DNA of 64,000 nucleotides from Tetracentron sinense (Eukaryota; Streptophyta; Magnoliopsida; Trochodendrales; Trochodendraceae), in contig CM026560.1 in NCBI GenBank assembly GCA_015143295.1, positions 8,248,501-8,312,500 of the forward strand. The letters run 5' to 3'. Of this stretch, positions 6,276 through 61,678 are shown piece after piece. The notes under the pieces were generated by a model, which was given only the letters and a program-made list of their open reading frames with translations, did no database searches and was not told the origin of the DNA. Each line of letters begins with the position of its first letter. Within the stretch, counting starts at the first letter, position 1. The translations under genes and the position numbers were made by a program.

Positions 6276-6479
6276 TGTAGCACCCCGGACTTTTTCATCC
6301 TTAATGAGTGGCACCTTCGTAGCTAATTGGCCGTTTTTGTAGTCAAATTAATAAATAAGGGAGAAATCGGAAATTCCGAAACGTCAAAAATGTTCGTTTT
6401 CGAAAGACGAACCCAACGCAAGTTGAATCGTCAAAATCCGACGAGCGAGTCAAAAGATATGGTCAAAACAGTCCAGACA

Positions 6480-6682
6480 TATAGAGAACCGATCGCTCGG
6501 TTCAATCAGCGATCGATCGGTCCATAACCGATCGATCGGTAGCTATCGCGCGGTCAGAAATTTTGTATGGGGAAATTTTCCAGAGAGTGAGTTTTTGACC
6601 GGTCGATCGGTCATAAACACCGATCGATCGGTAGGCAACCGATCGATCGGTCATAACCGCCGATCGCTCGGTCTTCGTGTTT
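6480..6682 (+). promoter_or_regulatory. U3 palindrome cluster (CCGATCGATCGG type)
   Basis: Seven to eight copies of near-perfect palindromes such as ACCGATCGATCGGT and ACCGATCGCTCGGT lie in 200 bp on both sides of TTTTGTATGGGGAAATTTTCC. The same arrangement recurs in the other LTRs of this family, upstream of their TATA boxes. Position suggests dimeric protein binding sites in the promoter or DNA cruciforms; this is inference. Confidence 0.6.
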
Positions 6683-7650
6683 TTCAGAATTTTCATTAAG
6701 GGCTTTTTCGTCTTTTGGGGGTTAAACCCTTCCTCCTTAAGGCTTGCTCGAGCCTTTAGGGCTTCATTCACAGAACTTAAGGGATTTTGAGAGATAGAGA
6801 GAAAGGAGAAGGGGATTTGCAACTAGGGTTTTCCATTGGAGAAGAAATCAAAGGGGTTTAAGAACCCTAGCTCACCCCAACTCGAGTTGCTTCAAGTTCA
6901 AGGCTCAAGCTCGTGTGGGGACTCATTCTCCAAGCTAGGGCAGCAACCCAAGCACGTTTTTGAAAGGGGTTTCTTCCCCAACTCAAGCTTCTTTCAAGCA
7001 AAGGCTTCATCTTTCAAGTTGGAGCTTCAATCAAGGCCCCTACCAAGGATCAAGCCTTGATTCAAGGTTAGTACACCCTACTAACTTACCCTAGCAATAA
7101 ATCTAGGTTTTCCTTATGAAATGTGATTTATGCTATTATGTTTGCCTCCCATATGAAATGTATCATCTCCAATGAACCTAAATAAGATAAGAAAAAGGTA
7201 TGGATGTGTGTGGGTGTTGATGTGGCGATTGGATGCCGAGGTGTATGTTGGGTGATGTTTGTGATGGAAATGGTGGATGGGTACTTTACCAATAATGAAC
7301 ATACCTTGATTTTTGGATGGAAAGTAGGCACTAAAAAAGAAGAAGATGAACCATTAAGGAACCTTGCATGCTATGTGTTTGACAAAATGCCTAAACTAGG
7401 AATAAATGACATAAATGAAGAAAATGAAAGTAGACCTTATGCATGTGTTCTTATGAAGGATGAACTATTCAAATGTCACGTAGATTACTCAAATTCCTAT
7501 ATGGTTATACTGTGGATTGAATTGCTATACACTACTCTTCATGTCACATTGTCATCATGATATTACAAGTGTTACACACACCACACATGCATGCATGAAA
7601 CCGGGGTTTTTCCAAGATGTATTTGTATAAGAAATGAAACAAGAACATGA

Positions 7651-7978
7651 CAAGGAGGTTGGTAGCCCAAGGAAGGGTGCTAGCCTCTGGCTCACAAGTG
7701 AATTGCAAGAGAGAACATGACAAGGAGGTTGGTAGCCCAAGGAAGGGTGCTAGCCTCTGGCTCACAAGAGAAATGAAACAAGAACATGACAAGGAGGTTG
7801 GTAGCCCAAGGAAGGGTGCTAGCCTCTGGCTCACAAGTGAAATGAAACAAGAACATGACAAGGAGGTTGGTAGCCCCAGGAAGGGTGCTAGCCTCTGGCT
7901 CACAAGAGAAATGGAACAAGAACATGACAAGGAGGTTGGTAGCCCAAGGAAGGGTGCTAGCCTCTGGCTCACAAGTAT
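7651..7978 (+). repeat. 69-bp LTR minisatellite, five hairpin-forming units
   Basis: Units start at about 7651, 7721, 7790, 7859 and 7928. Each contains GAGGTTGGTAGCCC ... GGGTGCTAGCCTC, whose arms pair (GAGGTT with AGCCTC through one G-T wobble, AGC with GCT, CCC with GGG). Related units in other LTRs carry compensating changes. Identical copies lie in the 3' LTR at 15183-15510. Confidence 0.85.
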
Positions 7979-8250
7979 ACAAGTCAAGAACAAATCAAGA
8001 CATGAAATACAAGACAAGACACGATACACATACATGATTTGACCGAGACACGAAAAGGGTTTCCGAGACATGAGTTTTACCGAGGTTTTTGCATTCATAC
8101 ACGCATGTCAAGATATGGCTATGTATCTTATGCTTTCACTATTGCTTTAAATTAATATCTTGTATTGCTCACTGTTGTTATGCTTTCGCTATTGTTATGG
8201 TTAGCTAGTAGTTTGTACTCGCTGAGTATTCCATGCTCAGCCGTACTTTT

Positions 8251-8391
8251 ATGTCGGCAGGTACTGTGGATGTCCTCGACCCCGAGCCTTGGGTCGAGGA
8301 GGAGTATGTAGAGGAGAGGGAGCCACCTATCCCATGGCAGTCTCAGGAGGATGGGGACTTGGATGTGTGGCCATACCTCGACTACTGTTGA
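8251..8391 (+). CDS. LTR micro-ORF, 46-residue acidic peptide (unrecognised)
   Basis: ATG at 8251 opens MSAGTVDVLDPE, then PWVEEEYVEE, and ends WPYLDYC before TGA at 8389-8391. The peptide is strongly acidic with aromatic residues at its end. Eleven further LTRs or LTR relics in the window, from several diverged families and on both strands, encode a recognisable version with mostly third-position differences. It lies in the predicted R/U5 leader, so it could be an upstream ORF acting on gag translation. Alternatively CGGCAG|GT at 8255-8262 is a splice acceptor and the frame is part of a spliced product. I do not recognise the peptide. Function is unknown. Confidence 0.5.
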   Translation: MSAGTVDVLDPEPWVEEEYVEEREPPIPWQSQEDGDLDVWPYLDYC

Positions 8392-8673
8392 GAGGAGAGG
8401 ATTAGAGAGTTCCTTTTGTATTTTGATAGGTGGGCATGTCCACCTTTACTTTGATTGTATTTGGTATATGTTAACTTGGAATACTAATTGGAGTTATAGA
8501 AGAAAAGAAAAGTTGGCTTACGCTTCCGCACTTATGTTTAGTTTCCGCGCTCTGATTTTCATTGAATTATATTATGTTTAGCCTCTTGCATTACAGGATG
8601 GTTTGACAGGTACACGTAGTCACCTCTAAAGTATCCCTTAACTCCTAGGGGGTATTTTGGGGCGTGACAGAAG

Positions 8674-8685
8674 TGGTATCAGAGC
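8674..8685 (+). promoter_or_regulatory. Primer-binding site (initiator tRNA-Met)
   Basis: TGGTATCAGAGC lies four bases after the LTR end (8669) and matches the complement of the plant initiator tRNA-Met 3' end, the usual primer for minus-strand synthesis in chromoviruses. Confidence 0.92.
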
Positions 8686-8996
8686 TCTAGGTATTAGAGT
8701 CCCTAGGGTCACTTAGATGATTGAACAAGGTATTAGAATCACCTTAGAGAGTTGTATTCCAAGTATAGACTAACAAGTTAGTCTTAGTCAAAATGGGTTG
8801 AACTTCAACCGAACATAGAGTCCTACGCTAGGAACACGGATTGTATGTTATGCTATTGTGTTATATACCGTGTGTACATTATTTGTGTTGTACTTATTAA
8901 ATGTGCTTGATGAATATGTATTAAGTGAATTGCGAAATTGTACTAAATGCGTATCCAAGTTAGACTCATGTTGTATTGTCGTTCTCAGGAGAAATC

Positions 8997-10233
8997 ATGA
9001 GACGCAATACCCGGGGTCGCGGGTACAACACGAGGGGTAATGGAGGTGAGGCTCCATCGGGTGATGATCAACCCGACTTTGCCCAAGCATTCGCATCCAT
9101 AGCCGAGACCTTGGCTATGTTGGCGGCAAGGCAACCGGCCACCCCGCCTAATGCGGCACTTATACCGGCTCCTCCTAATCGAGCCCAAGCCGGGATAGAA
9201 GCTTTCCGGAGGATGAGGCCTCCAACTTTTTGTGGAAGCATTGATCCACTTATTGCCGAGGGTTGGATTCGGCAACTTGAGAAGATATTCTCGGTTTTGG
9301 CACCTACGGAAGTAGAGAGGGTCACATGGGCTGCCTTTATGCTTGAAGGCGAGGCCGACCATTGGTGGAAGTCTGCACTTCGGACCCGAGAGTTGACCCG
9401 GCAAGGCCAAGAATGGACATGGGGAGAATTCTTGGACGTTTTCTACAAGAAATACTTTCCGGTTGGGATGAAAGAAAAAAAAGAAATTGAATTTATTACC
9501 TTGGAGCAAGGTAATATGTCTGTAGCGGCTTACGAAGCCAAGTTCTCAGAGCTATCTCGATTTGCTCCACACATGATAGCTACCGAGGCTATGAGGGCCC
9601 GGAAATTCGAGAGGGGGTTGAAGGCCTACCTCAAGGATCGTGTCTCAATGTTCCGACATGAGACATATTCAGAAGTTGTGGACAAAGCATTGTTGGCCGA
9701 GTCTAATTCCGAAGAGTTCTTTAAGAGAAGAGGAATAGAGAAGGGACAGTCTAGTAGTTCAGGGGAGAAGAGAGCTAGGACTATGTCTTATCAGTCCGCA
9801 GGGCCGGCTCAGTCACAGAGGATGTACTCGGCACCACAGGCTCCCCGCCCTTTTACTCCACCGGCTTTTCGCCCGGCTACCTCGTATGCTCCTCGCCCCG
9901 CAGTGACTCAGGCTACGGGTTATACTCCTCCCACTTATTCACATGATGTCTGCACCCTTTGTGGAAGGAGGCATCCAGCAGGGGAATGTCGGAAGGCTAC
10001 AGGAGGCTGTTTTCATTGTGGCGACCAGGGCCACATGATTCGGGATTGTCCCCGACGTCTAATGCCAGCTCAGTCTTCGGGGAGCAGGCCCCCGATTCGG
10101 CAGACATCTCAGCCTAGCTCTTCTCAGGCTTCGAGGGCCTCACAGTCTACCCGGCCTCCTCGCCCAGCCACACAGGGCCGAGTCTTTGCCTTATCCGAGA
10201 GAGACGCACGTGCATCCGACGATGTCGTGCAAG
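8997..10233 (+). CDS. Gag, exon 1 of the young chromovirus polyprotein
   Basis: Structural capsid/nucleocapsid protein packaging element RNA in cytoplasmic particles. ATG at 8997 (MRRNTRGRGYNTRG) is chosen because it is the first ATG in frame; it follows TTCTCAG, a possible 3' splice site. A retrotransposon gag domain covers roughly residues 65-220 (FRRMRPPTFCGSIDPL, WIRQLEKIF, FYKKYFPV, ARKFERGLKAYL). A Pro/Ser/Gln-rich linker follows, then a CCHC zinc knuckle CFHCGDQGHMIRDC near 10008-10050. Without splicing the frame stops at TAG 10248-10250. With removal of 10234-10365 it continues in frame into protease at [12 protein letters not shown]. Start and domain content are firm; expression is untested. 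Confidence 0.9.
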
Positions 10234-10365
10234 GTACGCACGAATTCTAGAATTTAAATTGTGTAAAATTTCTATGGTTTGCTTTGTGAGTTTCTATACT
10301 AAGGGTTACCTATGTATGATGCCTGTTGTTTGAAATCTACTAATAGTAGTCACTTAATCGCACAG
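10234..10365 (+). other. Probable intron between gag and protease
   Basis: The 132-nt segment begins GTACGCACG after CAAG, ends CTTAATCGCACAG, is T/A-rich and has branch-like CTACTAATAG about 30 nt before the acceptor. It carries in-frame stops, yet removing it joins VVQG to [16 protein letters not shown] in frame, the expected polyprotein order. A diverged intron of 145 nt occupies the same codon in the minus-strand element (26488-26632), where retention would also shift frame. A third relic keeps the donor (about 45413). Confidence 0.75.
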
Positions 10366-13300
10366 GCGCTTTGTTAGTGAACGAATGTCTTGCCCGAGTG
10401 TTGATTGACACAGGATCCACTCACTCCTTTGTGTCGCCTAGTTTCGCAAAGGGATTTTTGACTGAGGCTACTCCGTTAAAGCAGGAGTTGACCATTGCAA
10501 CTCCACTCGGCAAGTCAGTTGATACAGACAAGATATTCGGGGATAGTGTGGTTCAAGTGGGGGAGAATGAACTGTTAGCCGATCTCATCGTCCTAGATTT
10601 TCAAGACTTGGATTTTGATGTCATCTTAGGGATGGATTGGTTGTCAAACCATCACGGGCATGTTGCGTGTTTTGAGAAGATGGTGAATTTCAAGCCGAAA
10701 GGGGGTAAGCCTTTTCACTTCCGAGGATTAAGAGAGAGGGACATTGCTCGCCTCGCAGCCTTGAGTGTAACAAACCTAGAAGCACAAAACTCCTCGGCCA
10801 TTCCGGTCGTGAGTGATTTCTTGGACGTGTTTCCAGAGGAACTTCCCGGGTTACCTCCGAATCGGGAGATTGAGTTCGCTATAGAGCTTACTCCGGGCAC
10901 CGCTCCAATTTCAAGAGCCCCATATAGAATGGCCCCGATAGAGCTTGAAGAATTGAAGAAGCAAATTGAGGAGTTACAACAACTTGGTTTCATCCAACCA
11001 AGTGTGTCACCGTGGGGAGCTCCGGTCCTTTTTGTAAAGAAGAAAGACGGGTCGATGAGAATGTGTATAGACTACCGTCAGTTGAACAAGGTAACTATCA
11101 AGAATCGTTATCCCTTGCCAAGGATCGATGACTTGTTCGACCAACTGAAGGGAGCGAGATTCTTCTCCAAAATTGACCTTAGATCGGGGTATCATCAATT
11201 AAGGATCAAGGCGGAAGATGTTCCGAAGACGGCTTTTAGGACTCGGTATGGGCATTACGAGTTCCTTGTCATGCCTTTTGGGCTGACGAATGCACCGGCG
11301 ACATTCATGGATTTGATGAACCGGGTGTTCCGATCTTACTTGGATCGATGCGTGATTGTATTCATTGATGACATTTTGGTGTATTCCCAGACACGGGAAG
11401 ATCACGCACGAGACCTCCGCCTCGCTCTGGAGATGTTGAGAGAGCATAGGCTATATGCCAAATTGAGTAAGTGCGAGTTTTGGTTAGAGAAGGTCGCATT
11501 TCTTGGACACGTGGTGTCGGCCGAGGGCATTTCTGTAGATCCAGCCAAGGTTGAGGCAGTCATGAGTTGGGAGAGGCCCAAGAGCGTCACGGAGATACGT
11601 AGTTTCCTCGGATTGGCAGGCTACTACCGGAGATTTGTGGAGGGATTCTCCAGTCTGGCTGCACCTCTCACCTACTTGACAAGGAAAAATGCAAAGTTCA
11701 GTTGGAGTGACCGATGTGAAGTAAGTTTCCAAGAGTTGAAGAAACGCCTCACCACAGCCCCTGTCCTTACTGTGCCATCTGGACCTTTTGGGTATGAGGT
11801 GTATAGTGATGCCTCGCACGTCGGACTCGGGTGTGTCCTAATGCAACACAAGAAAGTCATTGCCTATGCATCAAGGCAGTTGAAAGAGCATGAAAAGAAC
11901 TACCCCACTCACGACTTGGAGCTTGCGGCGGTCGTGTTTGCACTTAAAATTTGGCGACATTATCTGTACGGGGTAGGGTTCTATGTGTACACGGACCACA
12001 AGAGCCTCAAGTATCTCTTTTCCCAAAAAGAGTTAAACTTACGACAACGGCGTTGGATTGAGTTCTTAAAGGACTACGAGTGCACTATCCAATATCACCC
12101 GGGAAAAGCAAATGTGGTGGCAGATGCTCTGAGTAGGAAACCATCGGGGTTGTTGGCTCACATGTTGGTGCGGGAATGGAGACTGTTAGACGATTTGGCA
12201 AATCTAGACATCAGTGTGAACGATTCTGTCCGCAGTCCGGTTTTGGCAAATGTTACAGTTCGGCCGTACCTTATAGACTTGATCCAGGAGTATCAAGCCA
12301 CAGACACTGACTTGTTGGCTTTCAGGGATAAGGAAGTGGCCAAGGGTAGTACGGACTTCTCTCTCACTAGCCGAGGTGCTATTACATTCAAGGGAAGACT
12401 TTGTGTCCCAGCCAATGTAGACCTTCGGAGAGAGATTATGGACGAGGCTCACCGGTCTAAGTATACAGTGCATCCCGGAGGGACAAAGATGTATCGGAAC
12501 CTCAAGAGTCACTTTTGGTGGCGAAACATGAAGAGGGAGGTTGCGGAGTATGTGGCACGGTGTTTGGTGTGCCAACAGGTGAAAGCGGAGCATTTGAGAC
12601 CGGCAGGTCTTCTGCAGTCTCTCCCTATTCCCGAGTGGAAATGGGAACATATCTCTATGGACTTTATCGTGGGATTGCCGAAGACGGTTAGGAAGACCGA
12701 TGCTATATGGGTAGTTGTTGATAGACTCACGAAGTCCGCTCATTTCTTACCGTACCGGACTACATTCAACTCCAATCAGTTAGCGGAGCTATACATCAAG
12801 GAAATAGTCCGATTACACGGGGTGCCAGTGAGTATTGTGTCGGATAGAGACCCAAGATTCACATCCAGGTTTTGGAAAAGTTTTCAAGGTGCAATGGGCT
12901 CCCGATTAGACTTTAGCACAGCTTTCCACCCACAGACCGACGGGCAAACCGAGAGGGTGAATCAGGTTATTGAAGATATGCTCCGAGCATGTATGCTAGA
13001 CTTCAAGGGAAGTTGGGAAGATCACCTACCTTTGGTGGAATTCGCTTACAACAATAGTTATCAAGAAAGCATACAAATGGCGCCTTTCGAGGCTTTGTAC
13101 GGAAGAAGTTGTAGATCCCCGTTGTATTGGGATGAAGTGGGAGAAAGAAAGATCTTGGGCCCCGAGTTAATTGAACAAACCGCGGATAGGGTCAAGCTTA
13201 TCCGGGAGAGGTTGAAGACCGCACAAGATAGACAGAAAAGCTATGCCGACAACCGAAGGAGGGATCTTGAATTCCGAGTCGGTGATTTTGTGTTTGTAAG

Positions 13301-13697
13301 GATTTCACCGACCAAAGGTGTTATGCGATTCGGGAAGAGAGGCAAGCTTAGCCCGAGATATGTGGATCCGTTCGAGATCATTACTCGAGTTGGCGAGGTG
13401 GCTTACCGTGTTGCTTTGCCCGCTCACATGGCGGCGGTCCACAACGTGTTTCATATCTCCCAGCTTCGGAAGTACATCCCGGATCCTTCTCACGTCATCG
13501 AGCTTGATCCGGTTGAGATTCGAGAGGATCTCACTTTGGTTGAGAAGCCGGTTCATATTTTGGATCGAAGAGACCAAGTACTTCGCAACAAGACTATTCC
13601 GCTAGTTCTCGTGCAATGGCAACATCACGCTCGGGAAGAGGCTACATGGGAACGTGAGGCCGAAGTCAAGGCGAAGCACCCCGAGTTGTTTGAATGA
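10366..13697 (+). CDS. Pol polyprotein: protease, RT, RNase H, integrase, chromodomain
   Basis: Replicative polyprotein, open for about 1,108 codons from 10371. Counting from 10371: protease catalytic D13-T-G; RT with [19 protein letters not shown], and FIDD (aspartates 333 and 334); RNase H with YSDAS (D480) and [13 protein letters not shown]; integrase HHCC finger from H694 ([19 protein letters not shown]); and the D,D-35-E core at D764, D825 and E861. The tail (about 1050-1105) has [12 protein letters not shown] and EEATWERE, as in Tekay chromodomains that target insertion to heterochromatin. All catalytic residues are present and there is no internal stop or frameshift. There is no natural ATG at the start, which fits expression as a spliced gag-pol fusion. 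Ends TGA near 13697. Confidence 0.95.
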
Positions 13698-13770
13698 TTT
13701 TATGTATGACTTGTAATTTTATTTCAAATTGTTATGCTAAGTTGTTTAAATTGTAAAGCACGCATTGTCC

Positions 13771-13807
13771 AAATTTCGAGGACGAAATTTTTGTAAGGGG
13801 GGGAGAA
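13771..13807 (+). promoter_or_regulatory. Pre-PPT hairpin and polypurine tract
   Basis: AAATTTCG (13771-13778) and CGAAATTT (13783-13790) form a perfect 8-bp inverted repeat with loop AGGA. AAGGGGGGGAGAA (13795-13807) then abuts the 3' LTR at 13808. The polypurine tract primes plus-strand DNA. The hairpin recurs in the same place in the other elements. Confidence 0.85.
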
Positions 13808-16201
13808 TGTAGCACCCCGGACTTTTTCATCCTTAATGAGTGGCACCTTCGTAGCTAATTGGCCGTTTTTGTAGTCAAATTAATAAATAAGGGAGAAATC
13901 GGAAATTCCGAAACGTCAAAAATGTTCGTTTTCGAAAGACGAACCCAACGCAAGTTGAATCGTCAAAATCCGACGAGCGAGTCAAAAGATATGGTCAAAA
14001 CAGTCCAGACATATAGAGAACCGATCGCTCGGTTCAATCAGCGATCGATCGGTCCATAACCGATCGATCGGTAGCTATCGCGCGGTCAGAAATTTTGTAT
14101 GGGGAAATTTTCCAGAGAGTGAGTTTTTGACCGGTCGATCGGTCATAAACACCGATCGATCGGTAGGCAACCGATCGATCGGTCATAACCGCCGATCGCT
14201 CGGTCTTCGTGTTTTTCAGAATTTTCATTAAGGGCTTTTTCGTCTTTTGGGGGTTAAACCCTTCCTCCTTAAGGCTTGCTCGAGCCTTTAGGGCTTCATT
14301 CACAGAACTTAAGGGATTTTGAGAGATAGAGAGAAAGGAGAAGGGGATTTGCAACTAGGGTTTTCCATTGGAGAAGAAATCAAAGGGGTTTAAGAACCCT
14401 AGCTCACCCCAACTCGAGTTGCTTCAAGTTCAAGGCTCAAGCTCGTGTGGGGACTCATTCTCCAAGCTAGGGCAGCAACCCAAGCACGTTTTTGAAAGGG
14501 GTTTCTTCCCCAACTCAAGCTTCTTTCAAGCAAAGGCTTCATCTTTCAAGTTGGAGCTTCAATCAAGGCCCCTACCAAGGATCAAGCCTTGATTCAAGGT
14601 TAGTACACCCTACTAACTTACCCTAGCAATAAATCTAGGTTTTCCTTATGAAATGTGATTTATGCTATTATGTTTGCCTCCCATATGAAATGTATCATCT
14701 CCAATGAACCTAAATAAGATAAGAAAAAGGTATGGATGTGTGTGGGTGTTGATGTGGCGATTGGATGCCGAGGTGTATGTTGGGTGATGTTTGTGATGGA
14801 AATGGTGGATGGGTACTTTACCAATAATGAACATACCTTGATTTTTGGATGGAAAGTAGGCACTAAAAAAGAAGAAGATGAACCATTAAGGAACCTTGCA
14901 TGCTATGTGTTTGACAAAATGCCTAAACTAGGAATAAATGACATAAATGAAGAAAATGAAAGTAGACCTTATGCATGTGTTCTTATGAAGGATGAACTAT
15001 TCAAATGTCACGTAGATTACTCAAATTCCTATATGGTTATACTGTGGATTGAATTGCTATACACTACTCTTCATGTCACATTGTCATCATGATATTACAA
15101 GTGTTACACACACCACACATGCATGCATGAAACCGGGGTTTTTCCAAGATGTATTTGTATAAGAAATGAAACAAGAACATGACAAGGAGGTTGGTAGCCC
15201 AAGGAAGGGTGCTAGCCTCTGGCTCACAAGTGAATTGCAAGAGAGAACATGACAAGGAGGTTGGTAGCCCAAGGAAGGGTGCTAGCCTCTGGCTCACAAG
15301 AGAAATGAAACAAGAACATGACAAGGAGGTTGGTAGCCCAAGGAAGGGTGCTAGCCTCTGGCTCACAAGTGAAATGAAACAAGAACATGACAAGGAGGTT
15401 GGTAGCCCCAGGAAGGGTGCTAGCCTCTGGCTCACAAGAGAAATGGAACAAGAACATGACAAGGAGGTTGGTAGCCCAAGGAAGGGTGCTAGCCTCTGGC
15501 TCACAAGTATACAAGTCAAGAACAAATCAAGACATGAAATACAAGACAAGACACGATACACATACATGATTTGACCGAGACACGAAAAGGGTTTCCGAGA
15601 CATGAGTTTTACCGAGGTTTTTGCATTCATACACGCATGTCAAGATATGGCTATGTATCTTATGCTTTCACTATTGCTTTAAATTAATATCTTGTATTGC
15701 TCACTGTTGTTATGCTTTCGCTATTGTTATGGTTAGCTAGTAGTTTGTACTCGCTGAGTATTCCATGCTCAGCCGTACTTTTATGTCGGCAGGTACTGTG
15801 GATGTCCTCGACCCCGAGCCTTGGGTCGAGGAGGAGTATGTAGAGGAGAGGGAGCCACCTATCCCATGGCAGTCTCAGGAGGATGGGGACTTGGATGTGT
15901 GGCCATACCTCGACTACTGTTGAGAGGAGAGGATTAGAGAGTTCCTTTTGTATTTTGATAGGTGGGCATGTCCACCTTTACTTTGATTGTATTTGGTATA
16001 TGTTAACTTGGAATACTAATTGGAGTTATAGAAGAAAAGAAAAGTTGGCTTACGCTTCCGCACTTATGTTTAGTTTCCGCGCTCTGATTTTCATTGAATT
16101 ATATTATGTTTAGCCTCTTGCATTACAGGATGGTTTGACAGGTACACGTAGTCACCTCTAAAGTATCCCTTAACTCCTAGGGGGTATTTTGGGGCGTGAC
16201 A
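13808..16201 (+). repeat. 3' LTR of the young chromovirus
   Basis: Same length (2,394 bp) and, as far as compared by eye, the same sequence as 6276-8669 at a constant offset of 7,532. It carries the palindrome cluster (14012-14214), five hairpin repeats (15183-15510) and the micro-ORF (15783-15923). It ends GGGCGTGACA before duplication CTAGT at 16202-16206. Confidence 0.95.
15783..15923 (+). CDS. LTR micro-ORF, 3' LTR copy
   Basis: Identical to the 46-codon frame at 8251-8391. In this LTR it would be transcribed only as part of the 3' end of the element RNA. Confidence 0.45.
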   Translation: MSAGTVDVLDPEPWVEEEYVEEREPPIPWQSQEDGDLDVWPYLDYC

Positions 16202-18610: not shown

Positions 18611-18903
18611 TGTCCAAAACCCACCCTAGGAGTTAGAGTGAATCTTAGATGACTTATCATGACCTACATGACATGCTTGACAAACCATCCTGCAAAATAC
18701 ACGGAGCATATACAATAGAGGATAAAATAGCGGAAGCATACACTAACCTAGCACAGCGGAGGTCTAATAAAACCTCTATGTATATACATCTAATCAAAGT
18801 TTTGTACGAAAGGGAAAGCAAAAGAAAGAAGGTGTGGACATACCTGCCAAAATACATGGGTATAAACTCTCGTGCTCACCCACACTTATCTAGAATCTAC
18901 CAC

Positions 18904-19026
18904 CTAGTAATAGCCCTCCACATGAGGCTCCTCAGTATGGGCCTCCTCAACGTACTCCTCTTCCTCCCATGGACTAAGGGCACATATGTCAAAAGGAGCA
19001 GGTGCTCCACTAACACCTGCCGACAT
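18904..19026 (-). CDS. LTR micro-ORF, 40 residues
   Basis: Starts MSAGVSGAPAPFDICAL, continues SPWEEEEYVEE and ends VEGYY before TAG. This is the PFDIC/GYY subtype. It stays open although the host element's gag and pol are broken, but this could be chance over so short a length. Confidence 0.4.
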   Translation of the reverse strand: MSAGVSGAPAPFDICALSPWEEEEYVEEAHTEEPHVEGYY

Positions 19027-21639
19027 CAAAAGTACGGCTGAGAATGGAATACTCAATGAGTACCAAATACTAACCAATAGTCATTGCAATATAGTAACAG
19101 AAATAAAGTAGGAAGCAGTTCATATAATTGATAGGAAAGTAAATAGTTTATTGTTCATGCTTGCATCATATAAAAGTCGGAAAAACTCTTGAAAACATCA
19201 TGTGCTTGACTTGACTTGAAATACTCTTTTCATGTTTGAAACTTGTCTTGTCATATTCTGTCTTGCTTGTCTTGTCGTGTCATGCGTGTCATGCATGTTA
19301 TGTCATGTTCTAGTTTGTACTCATGCTTGCTTGCCTGCATGAAAATTAAACATGCTCATGTAACTTGTGAGATGTACTTGCGAGGGAGGGGAGACCCCTC
19401 TTTCAATCAGATGCACTTGCGAGGGAGGGTGGTGTAGAACCCCCTCTTTCAATCTTGAAGGGAGGGAAGTGTAAACTCCCTCAAATGCAATGCTTGTTCT
19501 TGTTTTTGTCAAAATCGAGGTAAAACATATCTTAAGATATGCCCTACCTCTTATACCAACCCTTATGTTTGGCCTTGTCATGGTGGTCGTAAATCGAGAC
19601 GTTTGTACTTGGTTTTCTTGAAAACAAAACCCGTATTTCATGCGTGAAAAACCCTACTCATGGACTACATGTCGTGCTCGTGGTTCATGTACAATTAAAG
19701 CATAAGAAATGGCACATAATATCATCATAGTAGATGAATAATCCAAGCAATTAAATCTACAACAGGCCGTTCTAGGAATTAAAGAAAGTTCATACATGCA
19801 TTTTCTAGCAAAAATCATCATCTTCTTCACTACGGCATTTCATCAAACACTTGGTGTGTACGTTATGGTTAAAGCCTTCTTCATGCTTTTCTAGATGGAT
19901 TGAAGCTCACAACACACACGTGTGTTCATTATTGGTACAATGCCCTTCCCATTTCATTCATCACAAAACACACACACGGCATCCATCGCCCATACACAAC
20001 CATCCATCTCCATCCATTCATTCCATCTCATTATTATGTTTAGAAACCAGAAAAAAAATGACAAAAAGAAGAAGAAGATAAACTAGAGGGGTAGCATAGG
20101 GCACCAACCTTGAAAAGATGAGGAAAACCATTTGAAATATGCATGGGGTTGCTGTCGACCTTGGAGGACGTGCTCCTCACGTGTTATGGCTTGGATTTGA
20201 AGAATCCATGCCTTTGGAAGGATCTAGGGTTCTCAAACCCTTGACTTCTCTCAAGTTGAAACCCTAGGTTAAAAACCCTTTCTCCTCTCTCACTGTAGAA
20301 CCCCAGAAGTTTTTGTATATGCCTTGGTATGTGTGTCAAGGCATGTTGGCTTGTAATCTCTTAATTCATGAAATGAGAATTTGAAACTTTTGAAGATAAT
20401 TTCAAGAATGCTATAATTAATTAAATAAAATATTTAATAATGAACTATGGTCTTGAAAGAGTCCTAGTCATGTTTCGAAAAGGTCAAAAGGGAAGTAGGA
20501 TAAGTCTAAGTAGTAGAATGGGAGAAAAATGGACTCAGTGTAGAAATTTGCAGAGCACCGATCGCTCGGTCCATGTAGCAATCGATCAGTCCATAACCGA
20601 TCGATCGGTAGGTATCGACTGGTTCACTTTTTTGTATGGGGAAAAATTATAGAGAGCTTGTTTTTAATTAGTCGATCGGTCAAAACACCGGTCGCTTGGT
20701 AGGCGACCGATCGCTCGGTAGTAACCACCGATCGAACGGTTTATCGCGTTTTGCAAAATTTCATTTAGGGTTGTTTCGTCATTTGGGCGTTTACACCGTT
20801 ACCTATTAAGGCTTGTCTGAGCCATTAAGGCCTCATTCACCACACTTAGGTTATTTGAGAGAAAGGGAGAGAGGAGAAAGGGGATTCCAAACCTAGGGTT
20901 TGCACTTGAGAAGGAATCAAAGGGTTTGAAGACCCTAGATCATCACAAGCTCGAATTTCTTCAAGTTCACGGCTCAAGCAAGCGAGGAGCACGTTCTCTA
21001 AAGCTAGGGCAGCATTCAACCTCGACTCTTACAAGGGGTTTTCTTCCTTTACTCAAGTCGGTACCTTATGCTACCCTAATAGTTCATACTCCCTTTTTGT
21101 TTCCTTCTTCTTTGTTTTGCCTAATGTATGAACCTAATGAGAGATGTACCGATGTGGTGTGAGAATGGATGTTGGGCGATGGATGCCGTGTGGATGATGT
21201 GATGAATGGAATGGGAAGAGCATTGTACTAATAATAAACATACGTGTATGTGTGAATGTAAAACCACCTAGAAAAGTATGATGTAGGCTTTAACGAATAA
21301 TGTACACACCACGTGTTTGATGAAATGCTAAGGTGAAGAAAACGAGTTGTAATCCAAGAAATGCATGCTTAAATGCTTATGAAATTGCTAGGACGTATGA
21401 TAGTGTGATTACTTGCTTTCCTTAATTGCATGAATAATTACTTGCTCAATTAATGATGTTCTATGTATTGTTGAAATCCCCAAATGTCATATTTAAATTC
21501 AAGTGAAAGTATGTACACGATCACATGAGCACGAGATGCATTACCAATGATTTTCAAGAATAAGGATGTTAGAGGTGGGATATATCTTACGATATGTTTT
21601 ACCTCGCTTTTGACACGAGGACAAGAACGAACACCGCAT

Positions 21640-21785
21640 AGGAGGGAGTTTACACTTCCCTCCCTTCCATGAGGGGTCTCCCCTCACTCAAAAGTGCATC
21701 TCATTAAAGAAGGGTCTCCCTTCCCTCTCAAGTGCATATCATGAAAGAAGGGCCTCCCTTCCCTCTCAAGTGCATCTCACAAGCG
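21640..21785 (+). repeat. LTR minisatellite of the GAAGGG-TCT-CCCTTC type
   Basis: Units such as GAGGGGTCTCCCCTC (21671-21685) and GAAGGGTCTCCCTTC (21709-21723) are short perfect inverted repeats separated by AAGTGCATCTCA-like spacers. The change AA/TT to AG/CT in the arms keeps pairing. Confidence 0.7.
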
Positions 21786-22099: not shown

Positions 22100-22219
22100 A
22101 TGTCAGCAGGTACTGAGGGAGCTGCTGCTCCATTCGACATCTGTGCTCCTGGCTCATGGGTGGACGAGGAGTACGTTGAGGAACCTATGGAGGAACCTCA
22201 GGTCGAGGGCTACTACTAG
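22100..22219 (+). CDS. LTR micro-ORF, 39 residues
   Basis: ATG at 22100: MSAGTEGAAAPFDICAPGSW, VDEEYVEE, ending VEGYY and TAG at 22217-22219. PFDIC/GYY subtype, preceded by the conserved GCTGAGTATTCCATGCTCAGC hairpin at about 22071. Confidence 0.45.
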   Translation: MSAGTEGAAAPFDICAPGSWVDEEYVEEPMEEPQVEGYY

Positions 22220-26487: not shown

Positions 26488-26632
26488 CTAAAATTTTAAC
26501 TAGCTAAGTCAATCCATGCATCAACAGTGTATATATATAGGTATATATCTATATAACATGCCATATACGTACCCAATTGAATAATACATAACAAACAATC
26601 ATGGATAATTAAATAGAACTACAATTGCATAC
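26488..26632 (-). other. Probable gag-pol intron, minus-strand element
   Basis: On the minus strand AGTGCAAG|GTATGCAATT opens (26632) and GTTAAAATTTTAG|GAACC closes (26488) a 145-nt A/T-rich segment. It lies between VVQG of gag and [10 protein letters not shown] of protease. It sits at the same codon and phase as the intron at 10234-10365, but with unlike sequence and length. 145 is not a multiple of three, so only removal restores frame. Confidence 0.7.
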
Positions 26633-29326: not shown

Positions 29327-29482
29327 ATGTCGGCAGGTACCCGAGTCCCTCTCGACATTTGTGATCCGGGTCCTTGGATAGAGGAGGACTATGGCGAAGA
29401 GGAACCTTATGAGGATCTAGTAGTCGAGCCTCAGGCGGAGGCGAGAGACTTAGACCATTGTCCCCACGGGGGTGACTATTGA
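29327..29482 (+). CDS. LTR micro-ORF, 51 residues
   Basis: ATG at 29327: MSAGTRVPLDICDPGPW, IEEDYGEEEPYED, ending CPHGGDY and TGA at 29480-29482. Intermediate subtype: LDIC like the GYY group, but a longer tail. Confidence 0.45.
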   Translation: MSAGTRVPLDICDPGPWIEEDYGEEEPYEDLVVEPQAEARDLDHCPHGGDY

Positions 29483-30628: not shown

Positions 30629-30640
30629 GCTCTGATACCA
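30629..30640 (-). promoter_or_regulatory. Primer-binding site of the minus-strand gypsy element
   Basis: GCTCTGATACCA on the plus strand is TGGTATCAGAGC on the minus strand, four bases inside the 5' LTR edge (30645). Initiator tRNA-Met type. Confidence 0.9.
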
Positions 30641-30644
30641 CTTC

Positions 30645-32433
30645 TGTCGCGACCCAAAACCCACTCTAGGAGTTAGAGTGAATCTTGGATAACTTATCAT
30701 GACCTACATGATATGCTTGACAAACCATCCTGCAAAATATATGGAGCATGCACAATAGAGGATAAAATAGTGGAAGCATACAGTAACCTAGCACAGCAGA
30801 ATTCTAACAAAACGTCTATGTATATACATGTAATCCAAGTTTTGTACGAAAGGGAACGCAAAAGAAAGAAGGTGTGGACATGCCCGCCAAAATACATGGG
30901 TATAAATTCTCGGGCTCACCCACACTCACCTAGAATCTACCACCTAGTAATAGCCCTCCACATGAGGCTCCTCAGCAGGGGCCTCCTCGACGTACTCCTC
31001 TTCCTCCCATGGACCGAGGGCACATATGTCAAAAGGAGCAAGCACTCCACTAACACCTGCCAACATCAAAAGTACGGCTAAGCATGGAATACTCAGCAGG
31101 TACCAAATACTAACCAATAGTCATACTAATATAGTAATGGAAATAAAGCAGGAAGCAGTTCATATAATTAATAGGAAAGTAAATAGTTTATAGTTCATGC
31201 TTGCATCATATCAAAGTCGGAAAAACTCTTGAAAACATCATGTGCTTGACTTAACTTAAAATACTCTTTTCGTGTTTGAAAACTTGTCTTGTCATATTCT
31301 GTCTTGCTTGTCTTGTTGTGTTATGTGTGTCATGCATGTCATGTCATGTTATGTTCTGGTTTGTACTCATGCTTGCTTGCTTGCTTGGAAATTAAAAATG
31401 CTCATGTAACTTGTGAGATGCACTTGATGCACTTACGAGGGAGGAGAGACCCCTCTTTCAATGAGATGCACTTGCGAGGGAGGGTGGTGTAGAACCCCCT
31501 CGTTCAATCTTGAAGGGAGGGAAGTGTAAACTCCCTCATATGCAATGCTTGTTCTTGTTCTTGTCAAAAGTGAGGTAAAACATATCTAAAGATATGCCCT
31601 ACCTCTTATACCAACCCTTATGTTTGGCCTTGTCCTGGTGGTCGTAAATAGAGACTTTTGTACTTGGTTTTCTTGAAAACAAAACCCGGTATTTCATGCA
31701 TGAAAGACCCTACTCATGGACTACATGTCATGCTCGTGGTTCATGTACAATTAAAGCAGAAGAAATGGCGCATAATATCATCACAGTAGATAAATAATCC
31801 AAGCAATTAATAAAGGAATTAAATCTACAACATGCCATTCTAGGAATTAAAGAAAGTTCATACATGCATTTTCTAGCAAAAATCATCATCTTCTTCACTG
31901 CGGCATTTCATCAAACACTCGGTGTGTACGTGATGGTTAAAGCCTACATCATGCTTTTCTAGATGGATTGAAACTCACAACACACACGTGTGTTCATTAT
32001 TGGTACAATGCCCTTCCCATTTCATTCATCACAAAACACACACACGGCATCTATCGCCCATACACAACCATCCATCTCCATCCATTCATCCCATCTCATT
32101 ATTATGTTTAGAAACCACAAAAAAAATGAAGAAAAGAAGAACAAGATGAACTATGGACCGAGCGATCAGTTGTCTGTAAATTTTGACACCAAGTCCATTT
32201 TCCATTCCATCCACTACTTGGACTTATCCCACTTCTATTCTAACCCTCTAAGAACATCCCTAAGACCTTTTTAAGGCTATAGTACATTATTAATTATTTT
32301 ATTTAATTATTTTATAATACTCATGCAAAGTTCTCAAAGGTTCCAAATTCTCAGTTCATGAAAAATGGAGATTACAACGCATTATGCCTTGACACGTATT
32401 CCAAGACATATACAAAAATTCCGGGGCTCTACA
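30645..32433 (-). repeat. 5' LTR of the minus-strand gypsy element (internally deleted)
   Basis: TGTAGAGCCCCGGAATTT on the minus strand from 32433 to GGGTCGCGACA at 30645. It matches the left LTR except for a join near 32150 (AAGATGAACT next to ATGGACCGAGCG), which removes the TATA/leader part and some palindromes, roughly 0.5 kb. Contains a micro-ORF at 30944-31066 and GAGGG-type repeats near 31430-31530. Confidence 0.88.
30944..31066 (-). CDS. LTR micro-ORF, 40 residues
   Basis: MLAGVSGVLAPFDICALG, PWEEEEYVEE, ending VEGYY. Differs from its sister at 18904-19026 mainly at a few residues; both frames remain open. Confidence 0.4.
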   Translation of the reverse strand: MLAGVSGVLAPFDICALGPWEEEEYVEEAPAEEPHVEGYY

Positions 32434-36133: not shown

Positions 36134-37685
36134 TGTCGCGACCCAAAATACCACCTAGGAGTTAGGGATACTTTGACTTGTGACCACCATATTATACCTC
36201 CAATATGATACATAAGGCACGCAAAGAAACTTGTCAAAGTACACAAACATTCATAGCGAAAATGATTTACAATGCATAGCGGAAGCAAAACATAACTTAT
36301 CATAGTGGAAGCAAAATGCATAACCAAATAATCCTATTACTTGGTCCAAGTGTGAACCAACAAAAGTATACACGTGTGTAAATGTCCAAAATGGTGGAGT
36401 GGACAAGTCCCACTCTCACTTAACAAAATATCACGTCTTCTAACGAACAGAGTCAACAGAAGTCAAAGTCATGATGCCTATCTAATGAGCCGACATCCTG
36501 ATAGTGGTCCATGGAAGGGTTTGGTTCATAATACTCCTCTTCTACCCAAGGCTCTGTACCGTACAAATCGAAAGGAACCCGGGCACCTGTCGATGATAAC
36601 AAATATCGGCTGAGCGTGGAATATTCAGCGTATACAAACTATTAGCAATAAAGCAATAATAGCATAGAGCATGCGAATCATGGAGAATGAAATCCTTTAA
36701 ACATATCAAAGCGTGGAAACCGTGAAATAGCGTGTGAAATGAAATCCAAAACCAAAGTCAAAACCATGTGAGTCATGCGATAAACATAGCCATGTGAGTT
36801 CTTGGAGTCCATAGAGTTTATGGAGTTCCTTAGAGTTATTTATGATCCGTATAGACATGGAGCAATACCATAGAGCATATCCATAGAGCACAACATAGAG
36901 ATCTTAGAGCATTTGTATTCATGATCCTTAGAGCTTGTGAAGAACATCATGTGGTGAGTAGTAGTATCACAAGATTGGTAGTAGAGTGTATCTACCTTGG
37001 TGAAATCAGTGATTTTGATTCCAAATGCTTGGAACACTTGAAAACCTCAAGTTCTTTGCTAAGAAACACCAAAGGAAGGAAGGATCTTGATCTCTCCTTC
37101 AAGCTTGAGCAACACCTAGCTTCTCTCCTTCTTCTCCCTCTCAAAAACCTCACAAAATATTGCACTAAGGGTTTCTGAAACCCTAAGGCATGAACAAGCC
37201 TTATATAGGCAAAGGGGTAGTGGCTAAAGACTTAAAAACCCTTAATGAAGAAAATCTGCATATAACCGATCGATCAGTGGTACAAACCGAGCAATCGGTG
37301 GTTGACCGAGCAATCGGTGGTTTCAACTAAGCGATTGGTTGAAAACACCCTCTCTTGAATTTTTCCCCATGCAAATTAGTTAACCAGTCGATAGCTACCG
37401 AGCAATCGGTAGAAGCCGGTCGATCAGAGGTTAGCACCGAGCGATCGGTGATCCCCTGTTTTGCTACAAAACCCTGTTTTCACTACTTGAATCTTCTCCA
37501 ATCCAATTCTAACACCATTTTATGATTAAAACACACTCTTTAAGGAGATGTGGACCAATTAAAACATGCACGCCATAAATCCAAACATTTCCATTAGTGT
37601 AAAGCCCATTAGTGTACAAGACCCTACTTGAGCACTATTCACATACTATTCACTACTTAGTGAAATGAAGATTCGGGGTTCTATA
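36134..37685 (-). mobile_element. Solo LTR, minus strand, with GAATA duplication
   Basis: Runs from TGTCGCGACCCAAAATACC (36134) to CGGGGTTCTATA (37685), flanked by GAATA at 36129-36133 and 37686-37690. At 1,552 bp it is a short member lacking a minisatellite block. Minus-strand TATATAAGG lies near 37205, palindromes at 37260-37450, and a micro-ORF relic at 36453-36599. Confidence 0.9.
36453..36599 (-). pseudogene. LTR micro-ORF without its ATG
   Basis: The minus-strand frame reads ARVPFDLYGTEP, WVEEEYYEPNPSMD and ends DFDFC before TGA (36453-36455). The usual ATG-TCG-GCA is altered (TTATCATCGACAGG), so the start is lost, yet the core and the aromatic-Cys end are kept. Confidence 0.45.
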
Positions 37686-44164: not shown

Positions 44165-44306
44165 ATGTCGGTAGGTCAGTTTGACATCCCTAACCCAGAA
44201 GCGATGGGTTGAAGAAGAATACGAGGAACAAAGGGATCCACCTATCCCTATGCAGACATAGGAGGATAGAGACCTAGATAGGTGGCCCTATCTAGACTAC
44301 TCCTGA
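44165..44306 (+). pseudogene. LTR micro-ORF with a frameshift
   Basis: ATG at 44165 gives MSVGQFDIPNPEAMG then stop. One base of frame change later, WVEEEYEEQRDPPIP and WPYLDYS-stop are readable to 44306, with one further stop (TAG) between them. It is the closest relative of the DYC subtype and the only clearly frameshifted copy in the window. Confidence 0.6.
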
Positions 44307-45159: not shown

Positions 45160-45425
45160 AGAATGTCGAAAGTTGGTAGGCGGGTGCTTCCACTGTGGTC
45201 TTCCGGGACATAGGATTAGGGATTGTCTAGGATGACCACCTCAAACAGTCCAGACTAGAGAAAGCAGACTCACGGTTAGGTAGGAGCCTCAACAGGGATC
45301 TACTCAGGTCATGAGGCCCCCATGATCCACTTAGTCGCCTCATTAGGCGAATCAAGGCAGGGTCTTTGCCTTAACCGAGCAAGGTACACATGCACCTGAA
45401 GGTGTCGTGCCAGGTCCGCTCATTT
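45160..45425 (+). pseudogene. Gag zinc-knuckle fragment and intron donor
   Basis: GGCFHCGLPGHRIRDC (about 45180-45228) is followed by RVFALTEQ and VVPG, then GTGCCAG|GTCCGCTC at about 45413, matching the gag-pol intron donor of the intact element. Everything from protease to chromodomain is missing. Confidence 0.8.
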
Positions 45426-48716: not shown

Positions 48717-48836
48717 TTAATGGTAAACCTCTACTGGAGGTTCCTCCAAAGGCTCCTCGACGTACTCCTCTTCCACCCATGGACCAGGAGCACAAACATC
48801 AAATGGAGCAGCAGCTCCCTCAGAACCTGCCGACAC
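48717..48836 (-). CDS. LTR micro-ORF, 39 codons, GTG in place of ATG
   Basis: Minus-strand frame SAGSEGAAAPFDVCAPGP, WVEEEYVEE, ending VEVYH before TAA. The start codon position reads GTG, so it may no longer be translated. PFDVC subtype. Confidence 0.4.
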   Translation of the reverse strand: MSAGSEGAAAPFDVCAPGPWVEEEYVEEPLEEPPVEVYH

Positions 48837-50443: not shown

Positions 50444-50584
50444 TCAACAGTAGTCGAGGTATGGCCACGCATCGAGGTCTTGGTCCGCCTGAGACTGTAA
50501 TGGAATATCCGGCTCTCTCTCCTCTATATACTCTTCCTCGACCCAAGGCTCTAGGTCGAGGGCTCCCTCAGTACCTGCCGACAT
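50444..50584 (-). CDS. LTR micro-ORF, 46 residues
   Basis: MSAGTEGALDLEPW, VEEEYIEEREPDIP, ending WPYLDYC before TGA (50444-50446). It aligns with the young copy codon for codon, without a length change. Confidence 0.45.
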   Translation of the reverse strand: MSAGTEGALDLEPWVEEEYIEEREPDIPLQSQADQDLDAWPYLDYC

Positions 50585-58092: not shown

Positions 58093-58233
58093 ATGTCGGC
58101 AGGTACTAAGGGAGCCCTCGACCCGGAGCCTTGGGTCGAGAAAGAGTACATAGAGGAGAGAGAGCAGTCTATTCCACTACAGTCTCAGGCGGATCGAGAC
58201 CTTGAGGTGTGGCCATACCTCGACTACTGTTGA
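58093..58233 (+). CDS. LTR micro-ORF, 46 residues
   Basis: MSAGTKGALDPEPW, VEKEYIEEREQSIP, ending WPYLDYC and TGA at 58231-58233. In this LTR a frame from ATG 56605 reaches the upstream donor-like site (ALIQ|G near 56796) in the phase that would join this frame if 56797-58102 were spliced out. Confidence 0.45.
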   Translation: MSAGTKGALDPEPWVEKEYIEEREQSIPLQSQADRDLEVWPYLDYC

Positions 58234-58530: not shown

Positions 58531-59873
58531 TACCTTGATGATTGAATGGAAAATATGCACTAAAAATAGTAAGATGAACTACTAAGGAAATGTTGCATGC
58601 TATGTGTTTGACGAAATGCCTAAACTAGGAGTAAATGAATTAAATGAAGGAAATGGAATTAAGAATTTTGTAAGTCTTCTTATAAATGATCAATTGCTAA
58701 AATGCGCTATATGTTACCTAAATTGTCATACGATTATGCTAGAAATCAAAATGCTATGTTGATGTGATCCTCCCATTCAAACATGTCATCATGGTTGCCA
58801 CTATTGACAAGCACACAAGCATGCATGCATGCATGAACCGGGTTTTCCATGAGTAGCTTTCTATGATAAATCAAACATGAAAACAAGAACATATCAAGGA
58901 GGTTGGTAGCCCCAGTGAAGGGTGCTGGCCTCTGGCTCACAACCGAAAGGAAAATAAAACATGACAAGGAGGTTGGTAGCCCAAGTGAAGGGTGCTAGCC
59001 TCTGGCTCACAAGTGAAAGGAAACAAGTACATGACAAGGAGGTTGGTAGCCCAAGTGGAGGGTGCTAGCCTCTAGCTCACAAGAAAAAAAGGAAATGTCA
59101 AGGAGGTTAGTAGCCCAGGGATGTGCGGGTGCTAGCCTCTGGCTCACAAGTATACATGTCAAGAACAAGTCAAAGCATGAAATACAAGACAAGATAGATA
59201 TTATACATGATTTTCACAAGCAAGACCGAGACATGAAAAGGGTTCCCAACATGAGTTTTACCGAGGTTTTCGCATTCATGCACGCATGTCAAGATAATGA
59301 TATTGTTTTATGTTCAATATTGTTTATCTTATGATGCTACTAATGCTTTGAATTGATACCTTGTATTGTGTTCACCCTTGTTGTGCTTTATTATTACTAT
59401 GGTTAGCTAGTAGTTTGTACTCGCTGAGTATTCCATGCTCAGCCGTACCTTTATGTCGGCAGGTACCAGGGAAGCCCTCAACCCTGAGCCTTGGGTCGAG
59501 GAAGAGTATGTGGAGGAGAGAAAGCCATCTATCCCATTACAGTCTCAAGCGGATAGAGACCTCGATGTGTGGCCATACCTCGACTACTGTTGAGGGGAGA
59601 GTACAAGAGGGTGTATTTTGATATTTTGATAGGTGGGCCTATCCACCTTAGACCTGGATATGTTTTGTGTATATATTCACTTGGAATACAGACAATCTTA
59701 TGTAGAAAAGAAAAAGTTAGTTTATGCTTCCGCATGCATGTTTAGCTTATGTGCTCTAATTATTGTTAGTATCGTATTATGTTAACCATGTTTACTTCAG
59801 GATGGTTTGACAGGTACGTTTAGTCACACCTAAAGTATCCCTTAACTCCTAGGGGATATTTTGGGGTGCGATA
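58531..59873 (+). mobile_element. 5'-truncated plus-strand LTR, right part
   Basis: Continues 55487-55953 (TACCTTGATGATTGAATGG) and ends TTTTGGGGTGCGATA (expected GCGACA) at 59873. Four hairpin repeats lie at 58895-59150 (arms GAGGTT with AGCCTC or GGCCTC), and a micro-ORF at 59453-59593. Confidence 0.82.
59453..59593 (+). CDS. LTR micro-ORF, 46 residues
   Basis: MSAGTREALNPEPW, VEEEYVEERKPSIP, ending WPYLDYC and TGA at 59591-59593. It matches the DYC subtype without indels. Confidence 0.45.
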   Translation: MSAGTREALNPEPWVEEEYVEERKPSIPLQSQADRDLDVWPYLDYC

Positions 59874-61558: not shown

Positions 61559-61678
61559 ATGTTGGCAGGTACTGAGGGAGCTACTGCTCCATTTGATGTC
61601 TATGCTCCAAGCCCGTGGGTGGAGGAGGAGTACGTTGAGGAGCCTGTGGAGGATCCTCAGAGCGAGGGCTACTATTAG
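61559..61678 (+). CDS. LTR micro-ORF, 39 residues
   Basis: MLAGTEGATAPFDVYAPSP, WVEEEYVEE, ending SEGYY and TAG at 61676-61678. PFDxx/GYY subtype. Confidence 0.45.
   Translation: MLAGTEGATAPFDVYAPSPWVEEEYVEEPVEDPQSEGYY

Follow-up and report, generated by a model that had tools for sequence, protein, structure and literature searches.

What is the role of a short, acidic and conserved reading frame that recurs at the same place in the long terminal repeats (LTRs) of nested plant retrotransposons? The question is raised by a stretch of 64,000 nucleotides from Tetracentron sinense (GenBank assembly GCA_015143295.1, contig CM026560.1, positions 8,248,501 to 8,312,500 of the forward strand), hereafter the window, which is made up of densely nested LTR elements and belongs to an assembly of 1.16 Gb. 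An earlier sequence-only reading of the window had described the frame as a micro-open reading frame (micro-ORF) of chromovirus LTRs, possibly a microprotein gene or an upstream ORF (uORF) regulating gag. The answer put forward here, to which a probability of about 0.55 is assigned, is a different one: these elements would represent a chromovirus lineage in which the 3' LTR serves as a coding terminal exon, and in which one splice donor at the end of gag chooses between the protease exon and the LTR exon, thereby setting the ratio of Gag to Gag-Pol.

The elements and their acidic segments

The reference element is the chromovirus A1 (6276..16201, plus strand), with 2.4-kb LTRs at 6276-8669 and 13808-16201. 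It shows (i) the gene order of a Ty3/gypsy chromovirus, i.e., gag followed by protease (PR), reverse transcriptase (RT), RNase H (RH), integrase (INT) and a chromodomain; and (ii) the corresponding structure, i.e., an LTR pair (identical over 2394 bp, with CTAGT at both flanks), a primer-binding site (PBS) adjoining the 5' LTR, and a target-site duplication. Five domains score above the cut-off (PF03732, PF08284, PF00078, PF17917 and PF17921), while the integrase core PF00665 (E 0.00038) and the chromodomain PF00385 (E 0.00018) lie below it. The PBS is presumably of the tRNA-Met type, and we take the clade to be Tekay/Del. In A1, the acidic frame occupies 8261..8391 of the 5' LTR (plus strand), from an acceptor-like AG at 8259-8260 to the stop codon TGA; its copy in the 3' LTR, at 15793..15923 (plus strand), is the one proposed here as an alternative terminal exon.

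Thirteen such segments had been listed in the sequence-only reading, and each of the coordinates does yield the peptide or relic described; an nhmmer search of the window returned the same 13 and one short LTR-end fragment. They fall into five families, named here by the positions of the segments: (i) A, with 8251/15783, 50584, 58093 and 59453; (ii) B, with 19026, 22100, 31066, 48836 and 61559; (iii) C, with 29327; (iv) D, with 36599; and (v) E, with the frameshifted 44165. Segments 8251 and 15783 belong to the LTR pair of A1, and 31066 and 19026 probably to that of another element (92% identical, vs 65-77% among other B copies); these two pairs leave at most 11 independent insertions.

Selection on the acidic frame

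The acidic frame is under selection at the protein level. Eleven window segments were compared (the 13 minus the duplicate 15783 and the frameshifted 44165), and the Nei-Gojobori ratio of nonsynonymous to synonymous substitution rates (dN/dS) was 0.14-0.52 in every computable pair, synonymous differences being saturated in the remaining pairs. The pooled ratio of the corresponding proportions (pN/pS) was 0.48 in the ORF frame vs 0.75-0.99 in the flanks, 0.91 and 1.03 in the other two sense frames, and 0.60 in the antisense frame with which third positions are shared; in smaller sets, the ORF gave 0.42 (family A) and 0.38 (family B), and the flanks 0.53-1.12. In 200 neutral simulations on the tree of the window segments, none was as low as the observed value (0.476 vs a minimum of 0.555). 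These results bear out the protein-level selection that the sequence-only reading had claimed. Its observation of in-frame indels holds for every segment except 44165.

Genome-wide searches returned 21,606 to 32,221 first-pass candidates per query, of which 150 loci were scored in each case: those of the A peptide are all 100% identical, and identity spans 94-100% in the search with C and 80-100% in that with D. A sample drawn by peptide similarity (ratio 0.12 in D and 0.17 in C) is biased to low dN and was replaced, for D alone, by copies picked through the DNA downstream of the frame: the best 39 of 1839 candidates and the window copy, a sample that leans toward copies with similar downstream flanks. 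Once L089 (in which another element is inserted) and L091 (26-nt gap) were dropped, 38 remained, reduced to 35 for the ratio by merging near-duplicates. The frame is intact in 30 of these 38, the next best sense frame being open in one. Corrected for the mutation spectrum, the ratio is 0.28 (35 copies), as against 1.5-1.6 in the other sense frames and 0.8-2.0 in the flanks, and the plain pN/pS of 0.178 lies far below the neutral mean (0.70) and minimum (0.43), none of 200 simulations being as low. Among 39 copies, the acidic frame is open in 31 and any other of the six frames in six at most, which led to the rejection of an antisense gene.

The LTRs of these elements hence contain coding sequence under selection, as is the case for LTR-encoded accessory genes. 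The additional ORFs (aORFs) of plant elements occupy the space from LTR to gag or that from pol to 3' LTR, whereas the acidic frame lies inside the LTR. A ratio of 0.22, obtained from three sequences for a stretch close to the start of the LTR (6377-6476), involves few changes and was treated as noise.

The beginning of the frame

The sequence-only reading had described a shared start, MSAG. This stands in part: ATG is present in 11 of the 13 window segments, is missing from 36599 and is replaced by GTG in 48836, and what is universal is the dinucleotide pair AG|GT with which the frame opens (13/13). In family D, no ATG occurs at the MSAG place in any of 30 loci, nor in any flank-picked copy examined; as far back as the upstream stop, an in-frame ATG is missing from 34 of 39 copies, and 35 of 39 retain AG|GT. 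Family D therefore lacks the start codon of its own that a conserved-peptide uORF and an accessory gene of the sag/nef type alike would have. Since AG|GT is the constant starting point, a 3' splice site fits better than a start codon.

Splice sites were ranked within A1 (760 AG and 600 GT) by a simple score based on plant consensus weights. The acceptor GGCAG|GT ranks 5th of the 760 AG, and its copy in the 3' LTR, with an equal score, 3rd. The acidic frame is rich in GC (57% GC, 22% T) and its flanks are rich in T (42% and 39%), which is the pattern expected of a plant exon. Directly before the acceptor lies a hairpin block (8213..8260, plus strand): the 45 nt preceding the frame are the most conserved block in the aligned last 600 nt of the LTR, and the hairpin is predicted in five of six folded copies (z-scores -0.4 to -3.5). 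Taken together, these features make it quite probable that the frame is a coding exon entered at AG|GT and not a self-standing micro-ORF. The micro-ORF or uORF once suggested does not account for a family that keeps the selected frame without ATG, nor for the position of the frame behind an ATG-rich stretch.

Other signals near the frame deserve a brief mention. A stem after the acidic stop codon, sought by a rough pattern, pairs fully in 4 of 12 segments, and no stem is claimed. A second strong acceptor-like site is found near the LTR end (8595-8608, CATTACAG|GATGGTTTGACAG); it ranks 2nd of 760 AG and is alike in most families, and no role was found for it. Finally, D-family LTRs L089 and L117 carry an insertion of an unrelated repeat, ending in GCCCACA, only a few bases away from the acceptor of the acidic exon. 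In L089, the foreign sequence reaches CAG|GTGCC and was considered as a splice junction, yet other copies of the repeat end there beside unrelated DNA, and the case was put down to insertion.

Putative promoter and proposed leader exon and intron

A TATA-like site is common to the aligned LTRs of families A, B, C and D, being clear in D (CCTATAAAAGG or CCTATATAAGG) and weaker elsewhere. Downstream of it come a GA-rich stretch with telomere-box-like words and then a donor, in the forms AAG|GTTAGT, AAG|GTCGGT, AAG|GTTGGT and AAG|GTAGAT. Of the 9 window LTRs covering this site, 8 have AAG|GT (a base has been lost in B2), as do 21 of 28 D loci; in A1, the LTR donor (D1) ranks 2nd of 600 GT. The proposed leader exon 1 (6740..7066, plus strand), GA-rich and free of ATG, ends at D1 (GT 7067), its 5' end being guessed from the TATA-like site. 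Between 6768 and 7091, i.e., up to 25 nt beyond the donor, ATG is observed 0 times vs 5.3 expected, and in the following 1.17 kb (7092-8258), at whose end the acidic frame lies, 57 times vs 24 expected, partly due to tandem repeats. The leader stretch of D (about 180 nt) has no ATG in 19 of 28 loci, three of the other nine being misaligned.

Eight nucleotides before the gag ATG at 8997 there is an acceptor, A_gag (AG 8987-8988; acceptor and spacer, 8987..8996, plus strand), which ranks 6th of 760 AG. The motif CCAAGTTAGACTCATGT..TCTCAG|GA occurs 8-11 nt before the gag start in seven of the eight elements compared, namely A1, B3, three C and two D elements (the latter five being L118, L119, L120, L121 and L122), while L123 is unrelated DNA there. 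One D copy has GTGAG for GTTAG, L118 has TTG for the gag ATG, and element E retains CTCAG with no gag start at that place.

From these signals we infer a leader intron (7067..8988, plus strand) that would begin at D1 and end at A_gag, enclosing tandem repeats, the acidic exon of the 5' LTR, the U5 region of that LTR and the PBS. Transcription is likely to start far upstream of the acidic frame. The sequence-only reading had taken upstream TATA boxes to place the frame in the RNA leader; the TATA-like site lies far upstream, and the frame lies inside the proposed leader intron. A direct joining of the leader exon to the acidic exon was also considered and set aside, as no in-phase ATG is found in A1 or D and such an RNA cannot alone express the peptide. 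In consequence, if transcription starts just past the TATA-like site, the acidic frame needs an upstream coding exon that ends in phase 1.

Within the proposed leader intron, 7600-7980 is taken up by tandem repeats, each about 70 bp long, that contain AGGAGGTTGGTAG units and a donor-like site apiece; they are overlapped by a long antisense ORF (7544-8107). In the U3 region of the LTR, families A, B, C and D have CGATCG-type repeats in common (6490-6680 in A1), which lie upstream of the TATA-like site and are perhaps promoter repeats.

The intron between gag and protease

In A1, gag meets stop codons after DDVVQG, and protease starts 132 nt past the donor. The break reads CAA G|GTACGC ... CACAG|GC GCT, in phase 1, and corresponds to an intron at 10234..10365 (plus strand) whose donor, D2, splits a Gly codon. 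The comparison of this region included eight sequences, one of which (L126) is other DNA. The intron is also present in a B-family element (Cx; 26488..26632, minus strand; donor CAAG|GTATGC, acceptor TTTTAG|GA), in C (L124, L125) and in D (L128), always in phase 1. Element E has lost pol and keeps the gag-end donor, again in phase 1 (45408..45420, plus strand, last exon base 45413); read by eye, it runs over 43987-45700 from the gag-protease intron straight to the polypurine tract (PPT) and 3' LTR, as a gag-only, non-autonomous element.

The copy L127, of family D, lacks the intron precisely: GTGCAAG is followed by GTTCGTTGCTAGT, and L128 has GTTTGTTGCTAGT after its acceptor. This intron-less junction (L127:1-901) belongs to an element with two LTR copies 7.2 kb apart. 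The loss is a trace of reverse-transcribed spliced RNA, which means that the gag-protease donor and acceptor have been used. The gag-end donor ranks 6th of 600 GT in A1. A splice donor at the boundary of gag and protease, as in systems with splicing-based Gag supply, is therefore present in this group.

A proposed Gag tail from the 3' LTR

In the proposed mechanism, Gag would be read from an RNA from which the ATG-rich leader intron has been removed. Each LTR would offer a 3' splice site, composed of the hairpin block, a run rich in T and GCAG|GT, followed by 36-48 acidic, aromatic-spotted codons and a stop, and in the 3' LTR this frame would work as an alternative terminal exon, coding but without a start of its own. 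The gag-end donor (..GTG CAA G|GT..) would then have three possible fates: (i) splicing to the protease exon, yielding Gag-Pol; (ii) no splicing, yielding Gag with a short tail; and (iii) splicing to the 3' LTR acceptor, yielding Gag with an acidic C-terminal tail from an mRNA without pol.

The third fate is suggested by phase. In A, B, C and D, phase 1 is common to the donor at the end of gag and the acceptor in the LTR, so that the G of a Gly codon is completed by the GT of the acceptor, and the gag-end donor was found in every family examined. The odds appear somewhat better than even that the acidic exon is joined to this donor through the 3' LTR, which would give Gag an acidic tail and remove pol. 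Read from GT, six of the peptides have a net charge of -7 to -13 and 4-8 aromatic residues, and the C-terminal region of Gag contains 15 K+R to 8 D+E. Our guess is that the tail modulates the nucleocapsid part of Gag, which is basic, by tempering its binding, or acts as a partner-recruiting motif. AlphaFold predicted no fold for 11 peptides (mean predicted local distance difference test score, pLDDT, 65; predicted template modelling score, pTM, 0.16).

Several points weigh against the proposal. The use of the LTR acceptor, gag as its partner and the leader splice are what we infer from genomic DNA. Probes for the junction of gag end and acidic exon, and for that of leader and acidic exon, gave half matches only and no genomic copy (family A; best 40 candidates of 561 or 597). 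Since an RNA of this kind would be devoid of PPT and U3, genomic copies are not expected, but the probes gave no support. The ATG kept in 11 of the 13 segments is not required by an exon. A phase match arises by chance in one case out of three, and the families are related. Regarding the sites themselves, (i) an AG in pol (11618) scores equal to the LTR acceptor; (ii) a phase-0 donor in pol (11091) outranks the gag-end donor; (iii) phase-1 donors at 9046 and 9511 (gag) and 10705 (pol) score 3.7-3.9; and (iv) the protease acceptor ranks only 28th of 760 AG. The link to family B depends on the reading of nested copies, with B3 and B1 as the LTRs of one element and the C LTR in its gag. As for selection, D is the only family sampled independently of peptide similarity, and its 30 intact frames are by themselves within the range of neutral decay (mean 20.7, maximum 32), so that the case of D rests on the kind of changes.

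Alternative explanations

A minor contender, with a small but real share of the probability, agrees that the frame is a coding terminal exon and differs in the partner, which would be an internal donor of gag or pol, or a leader exon with a non-AUG start. Indeed, the missing start codon demands merely some upstream exon, and the three phase-1 donors just mentioned are candidates. Nevertheless, the GT at 9046, the only one of them compared across families, is missing from B3 and from one D copy out of two, and in C the site is weaker, while the gag-end donor is found throughout and is backed by a natural intron-less copy; the leader exon, in turn, offers no in-phase ATG in A1 or D.

It is unlikely that the frame encodes a free-standing microprotein translated from its own ATG (MSAG.., ATGTCGGCAG) on an RNA starting just upstream. 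Selection on the frame would be explained in this manner, and so would the persistence of the ATG in 11 segments although the spacer that precedes it varies in length. But D is selected without ATG, the TATA-like site and the ATG-free leader lie far upstream, and of the 11 segments with ATG, 10 carry T or C at position -3, the exception being 44165 with G. Besides, the hairpin block contains another ATG, which agrees with the frame in A, in C and in 22100, is one base out of frame in 31066, 48836, 61559 and 44165, and reads ATT in 19026.

Some plant uORFs are conserved at the peptide level, and in the 5' LTR the acidic frame does precede gag. A conserved-peptide uORF that controls gag translation from the unspliced leader is still very unlikely: the frame would lie within the leader intron, after 57 ATGs in 1.17 kb, an acceptor-like motif stands just before the gag start in seven of eight elements, and D has no start codon. 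Last, a DNA or RNA regulatory element (hairpin, splice or promoter signal) mimicking a coding sequence would suit the nucleotide-level conservation of the 45-nt block and its hairpin, but is scarcely credible given the third-position excess, the in-frame indels, the single open frame, and the absence of any simulation as low as the data in either set.

The coding exon joined to the gag-end donor, the reading preferred here, can be compared with systems already described.

Comparison with known systems

In mouse mammary tumour virus (MMTV) sag and human immunodeficiency virus (HIV) nef, protein-coding sequence of the 3' LTR is expressed by splicing and has its own start codons. The acidic frame resembles them in being coding sequence in the 3' LTR and differs in that family D has no start codon of its own. 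Among plant elements, CRR is a chromovirus, as is A1.

In Drosophila copia, splicing removes nearly all of pol (2950 nt) and gives rise to an RNA dedicated to Gag (PMC3735527). The splice proposed here would likewise yield a Gag RNA without pol, whereas copia is an insect Ty1/copia element, and the present case is a plant Ty3 chromovirus, with the proposed acceptor in the 3' LTR and a conserved coding tail. According to the available portions of the corresponding papers, to which the plant comparisons below are also limited, spliced Gag RNAs are made by EVADE of Arabidopsis (shGAG) and BARE1 of barley (PMC12786077; PMC3735527), and short GAG isoforms by sunflower elements (PMC7730604). As in these elements, alternative splicing near the boundary of gag and protease would set the supply of Gag. 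EVADE and BARE1, however, are Ty1/copia elements in which the splice itself creates an early stop, and no LTR-encoded tail is described in those portions.

Regarding Ty3/gypsy elements, Ogre (Tat lineage) has an intron between GAG-PROT and RT (PMC6317226), and in CRR, rt is spliced out (PMC3735527). They share with the present group the partial splicing of polyprotein transcripts, the intron being placed here (as proposed) between gag and protease. CRM group A chromoviruses resemble the present elements in that coding sequence extends into the LTR (PMC3059260); here, pol ends ahead of the LTR, with the acidic segment following about 2 kb deeper. The 5' aORFs of Tekay elements, likewise extra coding sequence, are separate ORFs whose product is long (402 aa in sunflower) and is predicted to be nuclear and largely disordered (PMC11728184), unlike the short LTR peptide reported here. 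Neither an LTR-encoded Gag tail nor a gag-protease intron is described for this group in the accessible parts of PMC6317226, PMC3059260, PMC7730604, PMC7264820, PMC12786077, PMC3735527 and PMC11728184, a search mostly outside subscription journals.

Relatives of the peptide were sought singly and as an 11-sequence alignment, and none was found among 5.8 billion proteins (word-sharing proteins of 0.55-1.75 times its length being scored), while an RT stretch has 7989 relatives in the same database. The hairpin core had no match in viral and genome contigs, and the RT stretch no relative in viral contigs; phage records, Rfam and a tRNA search gave no match.

To our knowledge, the mechanism by which plant Ty3/gypsy elements with one polyprotein obtain an excess of Gag over Pol is largely open. 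According to a review (PMC12786077), plant LTR retrotransposons are generally intron-less, Ogre and EVADE being notable exceptions. A very abundant chromovirus group would now be added to them, with a gag-protease intron that has an intron-less relative, a leader intron suggested by conserved signals, and a selected LTR exon in phase with the gag-end donor. If this is true, (i) the LTRs of this group are not purely regulatory; (ii) solo LTRs scatter coding splice acceptors across the host genome; (iii) Gag should also occur in a second, acidic-tailed form; and (iv) part of Gag, together with the switch between Gag and Gag-Pol, is carried by the same repeat in which transcription begins and ends.

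Other copies in the window

The remaining acidic exons, proposed as such by comparison with A1, are distributed over both strands. Family A contributes those of A2 (50444..50574, minus strand), A3 (58103..58233, plus) and A4 (59463..59593, plus). In family B, they are found in the 5' LTR of the B3 element (30944..31056, minus) and in its probable 3' LTR (18904..19016, minus), in LTR B2, probably a solo LTR (22110..22219, plus), in LTR B4, with GTG at the position of the start codon (48717..48826, minus), and in LTR B5 (61569..61678, plus). Family C is represented by a probably solo LTR inserted in a gag gene (29337..29482, plus), family D by the exon without start codon (36453..36586, minus), and element E by the frameshifted segment (44165..44300, plus, the end being approximate).

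Self-comparison of the window also suggests the layout of the nested minus-strand element of family B, which extends over 18614-32154. Its parts are a 5' LTR (32154-30642), the leader and start of gag (30642-29768), the C LTR inside gag (27354-29768), the rest of gag-pol (27353-22523), LTR B2 (20544-22522) and a 3' LTR (20291-18614).
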